Positions 9,815-22,258 of a DNA stretch of 64,000 nt are shown in pieces. The stretch's first letter is position 1. Each line of letters starts with the position of its first letter. Made by a program: the position numbers and the translations under genes. Below the pieces are notes generated by a model, which saw only the letters and a list, made by a program, of their open reading frames with translations, had not been told where the DNA came from and ran no database searches. This DNA comes from a bacterium (GTDB lineage Bacteria; Actinomycetota; Acidimicrobiia; Acidimicrobiales; CATQHL01): assembly GCA_026708055.1 (NCBI GenBank), contig JAPOVS010000051.1:1-64000 (forward strand). Reading direction: 5' to 3'.

Positions 9815-14672
<4,858 letters not shown>

Positions 14673-14740
14673 TCCCCGTCGCCCGGATCAACACTTCAGG
14701 GGGCGAACTCCTTGACTAGTAGCATGAGGGCGAAGATCCC

Positions 14741-14755
14741 CGGTCGGCAAGACCG
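14741..14755. terminator. weak hairpin between convergent ligA and the DUF262 gene
   Basis: CGGTC-GGCAA-GACCG followed by TT forms a 5-bp stem in the 137-bp convergent gap. The stem is short and there is no real T tract, so this is only a possible terminator. Confidence 0.2.
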
Positions 14756-14809
14756 TTGGTCGCCGCGCCGTTGGCACGATCCACGACGTATTCGTTCACC
14801 GCCGCGCGC

Positions 14810-16618
14810 TCAGACAGATGCGTCTAGTCCGAATCTCGCAGGGTTCCAGATGATCTTTGCCAAGTCTCGGAAGAGTTCTTGACGCTCGTCGATGGCCGCT
14901 CTCGTGAATGACTCGTACGACTTAAATGGCAGATCGTGTTCTTCGCGCAGTCTTCGGAGGGCCGGGTTGTGTTCGTACATCTTTGGGTGCAGCGATTGTT
15001 CGAGTGGATTCTGGGAGAAATAGTGGGGTAGCTTCTCCTCGTATGGCATGTCGCTATAGCTGGCGTTGAAGTCTTTGGGAAGGAGCAATTGTCCGCCGAT
15101 CTTGTTGCGATACTCGGCGAACTCGTGTTCGAAGTCGAACTCATGAGCGTGACTCTCGAAATGGTTGGCCCAGATGTGTTCTACTTCAAATGGTGGGTTA
15201 CGCTTCCGGCTCAAGTACTCATCGAAGGGCACACCAGTCACAAGCTCAGTGTCCAGCCAGGATGTCATTCGTGCGAGAAGATACCGGATATGTGATTTCT
15301 TGCGCCTATGGAGTCCAAGCCAGAGCATTCCATCGAGGCGCTTGTCTTCCTCTTCTAGCCATTCAGACAAGACACTTCTGATCATCTCAGTCGATTGGTT
15401 TCGCAACTTCTTCATCAGATTGAACATCGTGTATACGATCGTGGAATACCCGAAGTTGCGGTAGTTGACCATTCGCCGAACGACATAGATGTCCAGCGCT
15501 CCTGCGACTAGGGCAGCCTTTTGTCGGAAGGTCTCGTCATCGTCCTCGGGAGTGATCGCAGCAAGAATTACAGCCAGTTGAAGTGTCAAGCCGCTCCGAG
15601 TGTTGTAGCGGACGGATTGCAGTCCATCTCGGAGGTTCGACGAGGCGTCGATCAGTTCGATGTATCGTCCGCTTAGCGGAAAGAACTCGTCAACGACCAG
15701 TCGACGAAAGTCATCGTCGCTGCGTAGGCCGAGGTCCTCGGACTTGTCGCGTACCCATTTGTGAAATGCAGTTCCGATGACGTCAAAGTCACCGGGTGAG
15801 GCCTTCGCCTTACCCTGGCGTATAGTGTCAGCATAGTTGCCTCGTAACCAAGCCTTTACGAACTCTGCATCGGCATTTTCTTCCACATCAGTCAACGCTG
15901 TTATGCGCGTTCGCCAATCTTCGTTAAGCGTATGAATGGCATCCTCGTCGCCAACACGGGCAATGAGGTAGCTCTTTAGCATGTCGATGCTCGTTAGGCG
16001 CAAACCTCGGTCGTTCATCGTCTCGAAGATCTCGAGTGCCATATCCTGATCGGGGATAGTGATCTCCACCAGAGTTACTCGGTGCTGCAACCAGTCAGTG
16101 AAGTACGGAAGTATCTGCGCATCTTCACCACGTAGATCATCGGAGAATCGCTCAAGAATGGTTCTGTATCTGTCCCAGAGATTTCGCACGGACTCACGCT
16201 CGTTGCGAGTGTCGAAGTCCAGATCGTCAAGAATGGCCTGGAGACAATCCGCACGTTCTGGGACATCGAGATTGAAAGTCTTCCGGCCCATGGAATACGA
16301 GTAGATCAGCAGGTTGAGCGCGGTGGCGTCCTCGGGGTGCGTATCCTTGAGCCACCTCCGTAGACAGATGAGCAGAAGAGTCAAGGTCGTGATCCGCTGC
16401 TGACCGTCGACGAGATAGCGAACGCCGTCACGTTGGGCGGTGACGATCGGACCGAGGAAGTACGGTCGATAGGATGCGACGGCTGGCCGCTCATGTGAGC
16501 TCTCGTACTCATCGAGGAAGCGGTCGGTGAGATCATCGAGGAGATCTGCCACTTGGGCTTCCGCCCACCGGTACTCGCGCTGATAGAAGTCCAAGCCATA
16601 GCGCGTGTTCGACAGCAA
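14810..16618 (-). CDS. DUF262/DUF1524 (GmrSD-like) nuclease, probable phage/DNA-modification defence
   Basis: This is a 602-residue protein. The N-terminal DUF262 (GmrS-like NTPase) part has YGLDFYQREYRW (residues 7-18) and the hallmark DGQQR (71-75). The C-terminal DUF1524 HNH-type part has EVEHIWANHF (His near 481) and IGGQLLLPKDFNASYSDMPY. GmrSD proteins are type IV restriction enzymes that cut modified DNA; the link to this protein is by domain only. The annotated start is TTG. In-frame, conserved-looking residues (ADIQHIVGSARSVSQL) continue upstream to a TGA at 16679-16681 with no ATG, GTG or TTG among them. Base composition is clearly AT-richer than in the neighbours, suggesting transfer. 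Confidence 0.8.
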   Translation of the reverse strand: MLSNTRYGLDFYQREYRWAEAQVADLLDDLTDRFLDEYESSHERPAVASYRPYFLGPIVTAQRDGVRYLVDGQQRITTLTLLLICLRRWLKDTHPEDATALNLLIYSYSMGRKTFNLDVPERADCLQAILDDLDFDTRNERESVRNLWDRYRTILERFSDDLRGEDAQILPYFTDWLQHRVTLVEITIPDQDMALEIFETMNDRGLRLTSIDMLKSYLIARVGDEDAIHTLNEDWRTRITALTDVEENADAEFVKAWLRGNYADTIRQGKAKASPGDFDVIGTAFHKWVRDKSEDLGLRSDDDFRRLVVDEFFPLSGRYIELIDASSNLRDGLQSVRYNTRSGLTLQLAVILAAITPEDDDETFRQKAALVAGALDIYVVRRMVNYRNFGYSTIVYTMFNLMKKLRNQSTEMIRSVLSEWLEEEDKRLDGMLWLGLHRRKKSHIRYLLARMTSWLDTELVTGVPFDEYLSRKRNPPFEVEHIWANHFESHAHEFDFEHEFAEYRNKIGGQLLLPKDFNASYSDMPYEEKLPHYFSQNPLEQSLHPKMYEHNPALRRLREEHDLPFKSYESFTRAAIDERQELFRDLAKIIWNPARFGLDASV

Positions 16619-16767
16619 CTGGCTGACCGATCGGGCTGAGCCGACTATGTGTTGGATGTCCGCCTCAGGAGCCCTCTTTCAGTCTGCGGAGCCTTCGTCT
16701 GCCGACAGAGAATAGGCGGCACCGTTCGCCCGCAGTGACGGTCTGAGTTTGTGCGCGGGGGTTTGGG

Positions 16768-17463
16768 CTACGACGGGCGTGGTCGCAGGCCGGACTGCAG
16801 CGCCCAGTCGAGGACGGCGCGCCGGCGTGCGGCGAGGTGGCCGGCGGCTTCAGTGAGGTGGCGGTCGAAGGCGGGGTCTGGGTCTGTGGGGGGCGGGCTG
16901 GTGGCGAGCTGGGCGATGTGCAGTGTTTCCTCGTAGGTGACGGTGGGGGCGTAGCGCTGTCGGTGGTAGCGAAGTCCGTCTTCGATGGTGCAGGCGCCGG
17001 TGCGATCCATGGCGGCGATGTCGATGTAGTCGCGGCCCTGCCGACGGTGCTGGATGACTTCGAGTTTGGTGGCCATGAGGTCCGGGACCGACCCGACGGC
17101 GATGCCGTCGACGACGCTTGGGGCGGCGAGCTGGGTGGCGTGGCCGGCGACGAAGCCTCGGAGGTCTCTCATGACGGTGACGGGCACGCCGTCGAAGGCG
17201 ACTTTGGCGATGTGCGGCCGGTCGTCGTCTCTGTAGGCGGCGCGGGCAGCGGCTGACAGCAGCTTGGCGGCGACGGCGGGTGAGTCGAAGGGTTCCAGGG
17301 TCATGAAGTCGAGGTCGTGGCTGTGGCGGTGGCGCAGGAGCATGGCGATGGCGGTGCCGCCCATCAGAGCGCAGTCGAGGCCCTCGAGGGCGGCGGCGAC
17401 GCGGGGCCACGCCGCGATCATGTTGTCGCTGAGGACATCGCTGTAGTCCCCGATGGCGGTCAA
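16768..17463 (-). CDS. AbiEii-like nucleotidyltransferase toxin
   Basis: This 231-residue protein has the DUF1814/AbiEii nucleotidyltransferase signature: MGGTAIAMLLRHRHSHDLDF with GGT at 35-37 and metal-binding D50 and D52, then KLEVIQHRRQGRDYIDIAAM around the distal catalytic lysine and aspartate. AbiEii toxins of type IV toxin-antitoxin systems act through NTP transfer (tRNA in a related toxin). Its TTG start overlaps the stop of the upstream winged-helix gene as TTGA, so the two are coupled like an abiEi/abiEii pair. The partner does not closely resemble classical AbiEi. Confidence 0.75.
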   Translation of the reverse strand: MTAIGDYSDVLSDNMIAAWPRVAAALEGLDCALMGGTAIAMLLRHRHSHDLDFMTLEPFDSPAVAAKLLSAAARAAYRDDDRPHIAKVAFDGVPVTVMRDLRGFVAGHATQLAAPSVVDGIAVGSVPDLMATKLEVIQHRRQGRDYIDIAAMDRTGACTIEDGLRYHRQRYAPTVTYEETLHIAQLATSPPPTDPDPAFDRHLTEAAGHLAARRRAVLDWALQSGLRPRPS

Positions 17464-18191
17464 GTCAGCGCCTCGATGGCCGCGGCGATCAGCTTGGGGG
17501 CTTCCGAGCCGGCGTCGGGGTAGCGGCTGTGGCAGGCGGCGAGCTGCTCGACCGTGAAGCTCGACAACACCCAGGATCGGGCCTCGGAGTCGAACGATTC
17601 GATGAGGCGGCAGCCCACGAGGGCGGCGTCACGGGGCAGGCGCAGATCGGCGGGGTCCGATCCCGAACAGAAGTGATGCCAGAACTCATCGGGGACCGGC
17701 CCCTTGGGGCCTCGACGCTGGGTGGGGTCGGGTCGGGGCACGTCGGCCATGAGCGCCGCGGTGGCAGATGCACCGGCGAGGCGCCAGAACACGATGCGCT
17801 CATGTTGGCGCCGCACCGGCGGGGTCTCCTCGCTGGCCACGACGAGCCCGGCATCGCGGAGCCGCCGCAGCGCCGCAGAAGCGGTCGCGACGTCGAAGCC
17901 CGCCCGGTGCGCGACCGCTGCTTCGGCGGCGCCGCGCGGCCACAAGCGCAGCACCGAGAGGATCGCCCTCTCGCAGGGCTCCAGGACCTCAGCCGGAGTA
18001 GCAGCGGGGGCGGTGATCGCCGTCATGGCGGTGGGGCCGGCCACAGCGTCGAGAGTAGTTGCCGCGGAGGACGGGGCGGCGGGCCAGTACAGCTTGGGGC
18101 GGCGTCGCTCCCGCACCCGCAGCCGCGCCTCGAAGGCGGGGAGATGGGTGGTGAGCAGCGTGTTGGAGAGGATCTCGAGGTAACCGTTCAC
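17460..18191 (-). CDS. winged-helix partner of the AbiEii-like toxin, fused to a DUF4143-ATPase remnant
   Basis: This is a 243-residue ORF from GTG 18191. Residues 1-35 (NGYLEILSNTLLTTHLPAFE, then RLRVRERRRPKLYW) match the centre of DUF4143 ATPases, not the start of any protein. The frame stays open upstream and still fits that family (VRSTVNGYLEIL). Residues about 70-125 look like a winged helix (CERAILSVLRLWPRGAAEAA), and the C-terminal part is unrecognised. An internal ATG at 18026 would give 188 residues without the remnant and may be the true start. It is coupled to the downstream toxin and could be its antitoxin. The remnant suggests that deletion joined two defence genes. Confidence 0.55.
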   Translation of the reverse strand: MNGYLEILSNTLLTTHLPAFEARLRVRERRRPKLYWPAAPSSAATTLDAVAGPTAMTAITAPAATPAEVLEPCERAILSVLRLWPRGAAEAAVAHRAGFDVATASAALRRLRDAGLVVASEETPPVRRQHERIVFWRLAGASATAALMADVPRPDPTQRRGPKGPVPDEFWHHFCSGSDPADLRLPRDAALVGCRLIESFDSEARSWVLSSFTVEQLAACHSRYPDAGSEAPKLIAAAIEALT

Positions 18192-18221
18192 GGTGGAGCG
18201 GACTGGCGGACGACTCCGCGG
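18074..18221 (-). pseudogene. internal fragment of a DUF4143 ATPase gene
   Basis: About 40 residues in frame with the winged-helix gene follow the DUF4143-ATPase pattern (STVNGYLEIL, LPAFEARLRV, RPKLYW). No Walker A part lies upstream; another gene ends at 18244. A complete member of this family is at 41392-42654, which helped recognise the fragment. Boundaries are approximate. Confidence 0.5.
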
Positions 18222-18243
18222 TCGCTCGGTCCGGCCGTGTCGC

Positions 18244-18666
18244 TCAGGCGGCCCTGAAGCACCAGCGGACCTCGCCCCGGCGGGGCGAGTTGGGGCCCTC
18301 GGCGAACGGGTAGAAGACCGCCCGGGCGCAGTTCTCCCCGGCGCGCAGCTTCGTGACGGTCTGCGACCGGCCCGGCTGGTACACGGACCGGTTCACCGAG
18401 GTGGCCTGCACCGACTCGTTCTCGGGCAGTCGACGGCCGTTCAGGTACAGCTCGATGACGTAGCGGGGCGTGTCGGTGAGGTCGAGCCCGAACGCCTGCT
18501 GCACGAGCACCTCGCTGCCCGGCTCGGGGATCAGCTCCTCCACCCGCGAATCCACCGGGGGGCCGCTGTCGCCGTCGCGCACCAGGACGGCGGCGGTGAT
18601 GGAGGCGATCCCTGCAGTGGCGATGAGGGCGGCGATGAGTGCCTGGCGGCGCTTACTCAGAGCCAC
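18244..18666 (-). CDS. single-pass membrane protein with extracytoplasmic domain
   Basis: A 140-residue protein from GTG 18666: short basic N-terminus (ALSKRRQ), one membrane helix (ALIAALIATAGIASITAAVLV), then an external domain ending ENCARAVFYPFAEGPNSPRR and VRWCFRAA, with two cysteines that could pair. The start is chosen because TAGCCT lies 7 nt upstream and because the longer frame would run into the divergent pseudokinase gene. No family was recognised. Its divergent placement suggests a shared control region with the PASTA protein. Confidence 0.6.
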   Translation of the reverse strand: MALSKRRQALIAALIATAGIASITAAVLVRDGDSGPPVDSRVEELIPEPGSEVLVQQAFGLDLTDTPRYVIELYLNGRRLPENESVQATSVNRSVYQPGRSQTVTKLRAGENCARAVFYPFAEGPNSPRRGEVRWCFRAA

Positions 18667-18721: not shown

Positions 18722-20458
18722 GTGGACACCGGAGCCTCCGAGCCTCCTGACGAGAACGCAGGCGACGGCGTCCCCGGGGAGGTGCTCGAGCCCCTCGAAG
18801 GCGACGACACCGGTCAAGCCGAGGTGGAGCCGGAACTCGCCGGAGACGTGTCCACCGGCGGCCCTGCGGAGGCGGCCGAACTCCCCGCCGCCGAACGCGG
18901 CGAGACCGCCTGGGAGCCCGTGCCGATCGCCGGGCGCTACCGGATCGGCGAATACGTGGCCGAGAGCCGGCTCGGGAGGACCTACCGGGCCACCGACGGC
19001 GACAGCGGCCAAGACGTGGAGGTGACGTTCCTGGACGCCGAGGCCGTGGCCGACGCGGCGGACGCCGCGGCCCGCCTGGAGGAGTTGCGCAACCTCCGGC
19101 ACCTGCACGTCCTGCCGCTTCTGGACTGGCAACTCGACCCGGTGCCGTACCTGGTCCATCCGGCTCCGGCGATGCGCCTGCAACGACTCATCGAGTCGGG
19201 GGCGGCCCTCACGCCCTCCCAGACGCTGCTCATCGGTCTGCAGGGGGCCGAGACGCTTTACAACCTGCGCCGGAGCGGGGTCACCCACGGGGCTATCACA
19301 CCGGCGAACTGCTGCGTCGACGTGCGCGGCCGGCTGCGGCTGGCCGACATGGGAGTGGACTTCCTGCGCCGCCCACTGCATCCCTCCGAAGCGACCCGCT
19401 ACGACGCCCCCGAGACGATCCGGGTCGTCGATCTCGGGATGCCGCCCGCCGGGGACGAAGCGGTCGAAGCAGCGGCCGGCGCGGCAGAGGACGGGACAGG
19501 CGAGTATCCCGCCGTCGACGTCGGGGCCGGCACGCCTGCGCCCGCCGCCGGGACCGCCGACCCGGGAGATGCTCCGGCCCCGGTCGGCGACCCAGTTGCC
19601 GGGGCCGCCGCGGCCGACGTGTACAGCCTTGCGGTGGTGCTGACCGAGGCCGCCGCCGGCCGACCCGTGGCGCCCGGGGAGATGAGCCAACTCGGGCGCC
19701 TGACGGCTCCGGCGGGCGGGGGGACCGCCACCGCCAGGAACGTGGCGCGCCTGGCCCCGCTGCTGGCGCAGGCGTCGGCAACCAGACCCGAGAACCGCCT
19801 CGAGGCCGACGAGCTGGCGCTGGCGCTGCGCGCCACCGCCGAGATGTTCCCGCCGCCCACTCGACTCGACGAGGCGTTCCGGCGCGCCGAAGAGCATGAA
19901 GCGAGGCCCGCCTCGCCGGAGCCGGCGGAGGTCGGCCCGGCGACGCAGCCCGGGCGCATCCGGCGCCTCGCGCTGCACTCGGCGGTCGCGGCGGCGGTCG
20001 TGGTCGCCGCCGCCCTGCTGGTGATCTTCAGCACTCCCGGTGACGACACACCTGCTCGCGCCGTGCCCGGGGTGGTCGGCACGGATTGGTCCGAGGCCTC
20101 GGAGACGCTCACGGCCTCGGGCTGGGAGGTGCGCCGCCTGGACGTGCGGGTCCCGGGCGCAACGCCCGGCGAGGTCGTCGGGCAACTGCCCTCCGAGGGC
20201 GAGCTGCTCGACGAGGGCCAAGCGGTCAAGGTGCAGGTGAGCCTGGGGGAGCCGCTGGTCGTCATCCCCGCCGACATCGTGGGGATGACCGTCGAGGATG
20301 CCGGGTTGCGGCTCTCCGAGATCGGTCTCAGGATCGGCGCCGTGCAGACCACTCTGGATCCGGCCGTACCCGAAGGCTCGGTGGTTGCGGTCAACGAGAT
20401 GCTTCCGGAATTGCCGCGCGGTTCGGCTGTGGATCTGGTGGTCGCCGTCGGGGGGTAG
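18722..20458 (+). CDS. membrane-anchored Ser/Thr kinase-like protein with PASTA domains, probable pseudokinase
   Basis: This 578-residue protein has an acidic N-terminus (1-65), a kinase-like fold (about 72-375) broken by an Ala/Pro/Gly insert (about 245-297), a membrane helix (AVAAAVVVAAALLVIF, 421-436) and two extracellular PASTA repeats (about 445-510 and 512-578). Catalytic positions are altered. The glycine loop is ESRLGRTY. The beta-3 lysine position reads T102 (VEVTFL). The HRD motif reads HGAITPAN (189-196), with A191 in place of the catalytic Asp and T193 in place of Lys. N196 and D209 (DMG) remain. PASTA domains usually bind muropeptides, so this may be a non-catalytic cell-wall sensor or scaffold. 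It lies 10 bp upstream of gatC. Confidence 0.8.
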   Translation: MDTGASEPPDENAGDGVPGEVLEPLEGDDTGQAEVEPELAGDVSTGGPAEAAELPAAERGETAWEPVPIAGRYRIGEYVAESRLGRTYRATDGDSGQDVEVTFLDAEAVADAADAAARLEELRNLRHLHVLPLLDWQLDPVPYLVHPAPAMRLQRLIESGAALTPSQTLLIGLQGAETLYNLRRSGVTHGAITPANCCVDVRGRLRLADMGVDFLRRPLHPSEATRYDAPETIRVVDLGMPPAGDEAVEAAAGAAEDGTGEYPAVDVGAGTPAPAAGTADPGDAPAPVGDPVAGAAAADVYSLAVVLTEAAAGRPVAPGEMSQLGRLTAPAGGGTATARNVARLAPLLAQASATRPENRLEADELALALRATAEMFPPPTRLDEAFRRAEEHEARPASPEPAEVGPATQPGRIRRLALHSAVAAAVVVAAALLVIFSTPGDDTPARAVPGVVGTDWSEASETLTASGWEVRRLDVRVPGATPGEVVGQLPSEGELLDEGQAVKVQVSLGEPLVVIPADIVGMTVEDAGLRLSEIGLRIGAVQTTLDPAVPEGSVVAVNEMLPELPRGSAVDLVVAVGG

Positions 20459-20468
20459 CTTCCGAGCC

Positions 20469-20767
20469 ATGGCCGAACGGATCTCCCGCCACGATGTGGC
20501 GCACGTTGCGTGGCTGGCCCGCCTGGAGCTCAGCGACGAGGAACTCGAGCGGTTCACCTCGCAACTGGCCGGCGTGCTCGATCACGCCGCTGACGTGGAG
20601 GCCCTGAACCTCGACGGCGTGCCCGCCGCTTCGCATCCCTACCCGGTCGGCAATGTGCTGCGAGACGACGTGCCCGAGCCGGGCCTGGATCGGGCCGAGG
20701 TGCTGGCGCAGGCCCCGGAGACCGAGGCCGGGCAGTTCCGCGTGCCGCCGGTGCGGGGCGAGTCGCC

Positions 20768-20771
<4 letters not shown>
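20469..20771 (+). CDS. gatC: Asp-tRNA(Asn)/Glu-tRNA(Gln) amidotransferase subunit C
   Basis: This 100-residue protein, [20 protein letters not shown], is the standard GatC N-terminus. [18 protein letters not shown] and the end GQFRVPPV complete the belt that wraps GatA and GatB. The ATG at 20469 fits the family length. The stop overlaps the gatA GTG. GatC stabilises the complex that amidates misacylated Glu-tRNA(Gln) and Asp-tRNA(Asn). Confidence 0.95.

Positions 20772-22254
<1,483 letters not shown>

Positions 22255-22258
<4 letters not shown>

Follow-up and report, generated by a model that had tools for sequence, protein, structure and literature searches.

What can a receptor of the PASTA kinase type still do once its kinase domain has lost the residues of catalysis? 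This question is raised by an open reading frame (ORF) directly upstream of gatCAB in the stretch of DNA analysed here (the window, 64,000 nucleotides of contig JAPOVS010000051.1), which belongs to a 3.9 Mb Acidimicrobiia MAG that is 96% complete. The preliminary description of the sequence had taken the product of this ORF for a PASTA receptor with a dead kinase domain, and the reading frame, the motifs, two matches to PF03793 and a gatC start at 20469 bear this out. The features of the locus are as follows.

18244..18666, minus strand: divergently encoded 140-residue membrane-anchored protein (ORF, conserved in the genus)
18722..20458, plus strand: predicted PASTA receptor pseudokinase, 578 residues, GTG start (ORF and translation, PF03793 twice)
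Start of the same ORF, plus strand: acidic N-terminal tail, preceding the kinase-like domain (about residues 66-380)
18935..19426, plus strand: pseudokinase core, residues 72-235 (alignment with 52 intact orthologues, dN/dS)
19427..19597, plus strand: variable insert rich in Ala, Pro and acidic residues, residues 236-292, after the APE motif (dN/dS 0.52)
19598..19861, plus strand: remainder of the C-lobe, residues 293-380, with alpha-F Asp299 and Arg359 retained (alignment)
19961..20041, plus strand: single transmembrane helix, residues ~414-440 (hydrophobic run by inspection, aligned across orthologues)
20063..20443, plus strand: two PASTA repeats (PF03793 matches at 20063-20242 and 20273-20443)
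20469..20771, plus strand: gatC (PF02686, 5.8e-20)
20768-22258, plus strand: gatA (ORF)
to 23745, plus strand: gatB (ORF)

The gene runs from its GTG at 18722 to 20458 through 578 codons with no internal stop. The PASTA model matched twice above the cut-off (1.7e-15), and both copies follow one membrane helix recognised by inspection of the sequence, as the preliminary description had stated. Most of the orthologues examined have three or four repeats as against two here, and the smaller number could weaken ligand binding. The Pkinase model (PF00069) reached 25.0 bits, less than its cut-off of 31.7, whereas eight orthologues from outside the window's family scored 101-145 bits and the most degenerate one 52; the model for PASTA Ser/Thr kinases of the Stk1/PknB type (NF033483) gave 87.5 bits and did not reach its cut-off of 450. 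In a single-sequence phmmer search the first PDB match of the product was PknB, and the best PASTA matches in PDB were chains of the PknB and PrkC type. A profile built from seven orthologues of the window's family (f1) matched solved PDB kinases at 4.7e-12 and PknB at 1.8e-9. Since PknB tops the phmmer search and the profile reaches this E-value, we regard the kinase fold as secure at the sequence level. Structure models computed from four sequences were poor (pLDDT 44 and 54); that of the kinase domain (pTM 0.29) showed a kinase-like order of secondary structure with low confidence, and its Foldseek match to kinases, at a TM of about 0.2, was set aside as weak support because of the quality of the models.

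Alignment to the intact orthologues put T102, in the context VEVTFLD, at the position of the beta-3 lysine, and HGAITPAN (residues 189-196) in the place of HRDxKPxN, so that A191 stands at the HRD aspartate. The glycine loop is degenerate (VAESRLGRTY), DFG has become DMG in the window sequence (D209, within ADMG), and Glu231 of the APE motif is intact. The replaced lysine, the altered catalytic loop and the degenerate glycine loop had thus been read correctly at the outset. The locus is present in six genomes of the genus. In these, the beta-3 lysine is T in five and I in one, HRD is HGA in every case, and the catalytic-loop asparagine is N, S or H. The DxG aspartate had also been described as remaining; it does remain in the window, but it is not conserved, since it occurs solely in the window's species, with Glu in the other five members of the genus and Gly in the sister genus (G008). 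That sister genus retains HGD and has lost the lysine, the asparagine and the DxG aspartate. The five other proteins of the genus share the catalytic losses at 60-85% identity, which excludes sequencing error. Two marks of a pseudokinase were found, namely catalytic residues lost in common with close orthologues (6/6 genus genomes) and a kinase fold still recognisable by profile.

The region around gatC was taken from about 70 genomes of the order, and an orthologue was called intact when Lys, HRD Asp and DFG Asp were all present. By this rule 52 of the 82 orthologues are intact, including three borderline cases with HGD or RYD (G043, G103 and G117), and 30 are degenerate. The block consisting of ligA, the divergent membrane protein, the PASTA kinase and gatCAB recurs across the order. 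Most families have an intact kinase with VAVK, HRDIKPAN, DFG and S/APEQ, and the PASTA repeats number three or four in three intact example orthologues. In some families no copy lies near gatC. Other orders of the class likewise contain full-length matches, found by sequence rather than by locus. The best explanation, judged from orthology in both locus and sequence, would be an ancestor that was a second, active PASTA kinase of Acidimicrobiia, distinct from PknB. A check of the critical residues in orthologues had been proposed earlier, and its outcome is divided: the genus has neither K nor D, while most other families keep both. We concluded from this distribution that catalysis was lost within the window's lineage.

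Degenerate catalytic residues were seen in six families. In f1 the window's genus lacks the catalytic aspartate, which is absent also in f17 (6/6 genomes), in f52 (3/3) and in 11 of the 12 examined copies of f27; f12 is degenerate in its one genome, and in f23 one genus (g24) is degenerate (3/3), against eight further sampled genera with intact motifs. A tree of GatC, GatA and LigA unites f1 (with the window's genus and its sister genus), f17 and f52 in one clade with 99% SH-aLRT, and the other degenerate families are placed elsewhere. Parsimony on this tree requires at least four changes between the intact and degenerate states. Forcing all degenerate rows into one clade worsened the tree by 45.5 log units with a p-AU of 0.083, so a single origin is not rejected at 0.05 and the number of origins is uncertain. 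The independence of the losses rests on the four changes by parsimony together with genus g24 of f23, the clearest separate case, and the receptor kinase was probably inactivated more than once.

The start of gatC lies 10 bp past the stop of the kinase gene, and gatCAB is probably co-transcribed downstream of it. The spacing between the kinase gene and gatC varies from 0 to about 10 kb, with values up to ~10 kb in many families. As it is so loose, the proximity probably reflects the history of the ligA-gatCAB locus and not function, and a functional tie to gatCAB was set aside. On the other side, the gap between ligA and the membrane protein gene is 44 bp in two of the three relatives compared, 444 bp in the third and 3.6 kb here; the window carries at 14672-18244 a gene of the GmrSD type (type IV restriction-like), one for a nucleotidyltransferase of the AbiEii type and a companion gene, which look like a defence or toxin-antitoxin insertion. 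LigA (11253-14672 of the window) appears longer than in the closest relative, whose HhH region (residues 488-625) aligns to two stretches here with a low-complexity linker between them; self-comparison of LigA revealed no clear internal duplication. At the locus of another genome (G042), the divergent membrane protein and gatCAB are kept and the kinase gene is reduced to a PASTA fragment. We asked whether the short ORF there (L079:11510-12286) might encode a receptor made of PASTA alone, and decided against it because the translation looks like a truncated remnant.

The divergently encoded membrane protein is separated from the kinase ORF by 55 bp and is 81-95% identical within the genus. It has an N-terminal helix and a predicted all-beta ectodomain with two Cys (low-confidence model, pLDDT 54), and it matched no Pfam family. 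With an iterated profile it was detected close to the kinase gene, in divergent orientation, at 42 of the 55 loci from the order, a count that includes the window and L036-L038, and it is missing mainly from early-branching families. In a genome where the kinase gene lies ~40 kb from gatC (G052, locus L034), the membrane protein still adjoins the kinase. On account of the 42 loci and this displaced pair, we consider it, by its position, the leading candidate partner. The link suggested in the preliminary description thus gains support, although the partnership itself, a possible one as read from gene order, keeps the standing of a candidate.

On balance we think it probable that the product is a pseudokinase that senses peptidoglycan and acts by binding other proteins, possibly PknB, the divergent membrane protein or both. 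It would be a single-pass receptor whose extracytoplasmic PASTA pair probably contacts peptidoglycan or lipid II and would also set its localisation; in other kinases, such repeats bind muropeptides and determine where the protein is localised (PMC3601408, PMC3145798). The cytoplasmic kinase fold would no longer be capable of phosphotransfer, the usual ATP-Mg binding has probably been lost, and signalling would proceed by binding; the likeliest role is that of a scaffold or allosteric partner of an intact PknB or of another membrane protein. An intact PknB is in fact encoded on contig C27 of the same genome (VAIK, HRDVKPQN, DFG, four PASTA repeats), adjoined by a gene for a PP2C phosphatase; three further kinase-family genes (C41, C52 and C73; L002-L004) are also present. 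Dimerisation through the N-lobe is allosterically activating in PknB and PknD (PMC3601408). Allosteric pairing of the window protein with PknB is possible, with no observation that supports it specifically. The equivalents of R10 and D76, which with L33 we take to belong to the N-lobe dimer interface of PknB, are retained in most degenerate copies, the D76 equivalent in 28 of 30; PknB mutants L33D and D76A exist according to PDB titles. The equivalent of L33 is polar (T, D, E or S) in f1, and for this reason the usual back-to-back dimer may not form in the window's family.

Selection on the different parts of the protein bears on whether the kinase fold matters at all. The lowest dN/dS, 0.19, fell on residues 66-235, followed by the PASTA part (0.29) and the remainder of the C-lobe, residues 293-380 (0.44); the insert (0.52) and the tail (0.62) had the highest values. 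All were obtained by NG86 over small regions from one pair of sequences, the window and the relative closest to it (84-85% identity). The insert is mostly missing in intact orthologues and strongly variable in length among relatives. The APE Glu, alpha-F Asp299 and Arg359 are invariant in 30/30 degenerate and 52/52 intact orthologues, and the core blocks LRHLHVLPLLDWQ and RLEADELALALRATAEMFPPP are nearly invariant within the genus. It is very improbable indeed that the gene is simply on its way out by relaxed decay. The different degenerations in several lineages, the PASTA fragment left in G042 and the families with no copy near gatC would fit such a course, but the frame is open in 6/6 genomes of the genus, every folded part has a dN/dS below 0.6, and the scaffold residues do not vary; a core constrained at least as tightly as the PASTA part argues against decay. 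These observations support the view that the fold is still under purifying selection and that the gene encodes a conserved pseudokinase receptor. The same comparison of core and PASTA part makes it unlikely that the protein matters solely through its membrane-anchored PASTA part, for example as a decoy at the cell wall or a localisation factor tempering PknB, with an inert kinase fold kept for stability. The PASTA part is indeed constrained, and the PASTA domain of PknB, over-expressed alone, perturbs mycobacterial growth (PMC4632501); the constraint on the core, at least as strong, and its almost invariant blocks speak against this explanation.

Two further explanations were weighed. The protein might still bind nucleotide, or use an unusual mechanism for phosphotransfer or some other transfer, as certain pseudokinases that have become enzymes do. 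Unusual ATP binding is predicted for some bacterial pseudokinase families, DYD and DLHK (PMC12599244), and both the beta-3 Lys and the Asn persist in the less degenerate relatives G077 and G059; we nevertheless judge it very unlikely, given that none of K, the HRD Asp, the Asn, the DxG Asp and the glycine loop is retained throughout the window's genus, each being lost or variable. It is extremely improbable that the protein acts like MviN, being phosphorylated by PknB and then recruiting an FHA reader to restrain peptidoglycan synthesis. In actinobacteria the pseudokinase MviN is a target of PknB and is bound by FhaA (PMC12599244), and the intact PknB and the PP2C phosphatase would suit such a scheme. 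The domain layout, however, is that of a PASTA receptor and not of a MurJ fusion. Moreover, a search of the genome (96% complete) found no FHA domain, so the reader is missing and signalling of the MviN-FhaA type is unlikely; to our knowledge, the absence of FHA domains beside a PknB-type kinase and a PP2C phosphatase is unusual among actinobacteria.

Extending the binding-based receptor beyond the window, we put forward tentatively, rating it short of probable, that a second PASTA kinase, class-wide in Acidimicrobiia, was independently converted several times into a cell-wall-sensing pseudokinase receptor acting through protein binding, jointly with a divergently encoded membrane partner. If this is true, natural lineages offer active and dead versions of one receptor at one locus. 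A general question about PASTA kinases is which share of their work depends on phosphotransfer and which on sensing and binding. Intact and apparently dead orthologues that occupy the same locus in sister families, often with the same small neighbour, would form a natural experiment in kinase-independent cell-wall signalling, with the conserved neighbour as a concrete partner candidate.

PASTA kinases and bacterial pseudokinases are both already known; their combination in a PASTA-receptor pseudokinase was not found described in the open-access literature. None of the seven bacterial pseudokinase families in a 2025 review is described as a PASTA receptor (PMC12599244). ActPs1, ActPs2, GLW, CP1, DYD and DLHK resemble the window protein in their divergent catalytic motifs, and some are membrane-associated (PMC12599244); compared by quoted motifs only, ActPs2 (beta-3 Arg, HRD Asp to Asn) and GLW (HRD replaced) differ from it (PMC12599244). 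The C-terminal pseudokinase of MviN/MurJ (ActPs3) is likewise actinobacterial and cell-wall-linked and has lost all three motifs (PMC12599244). It is, however, fused to a lipid II flippase, is no PASTA receptor and acts via an FHA protein; the window protein does not have its architecture and motif pattern (VALT, HRD region lost), but a single transmembrane helix with PASTA repeats, an HGA remnant of the catalytic loop and VEVTFLD at beta 3. With PknB, StkP and PrkC it shares the kinase fold, the one membrane helix and the extracytoplasmic PASTA repeats, and it differs from them in having no catalytic Lys, HRD Asp or conserved DFG Asp, in its two PASTA repeats, and in the position of its gene at the ligA-gatCAB locus, the intact PknB of this genome being encoded elsewhere.
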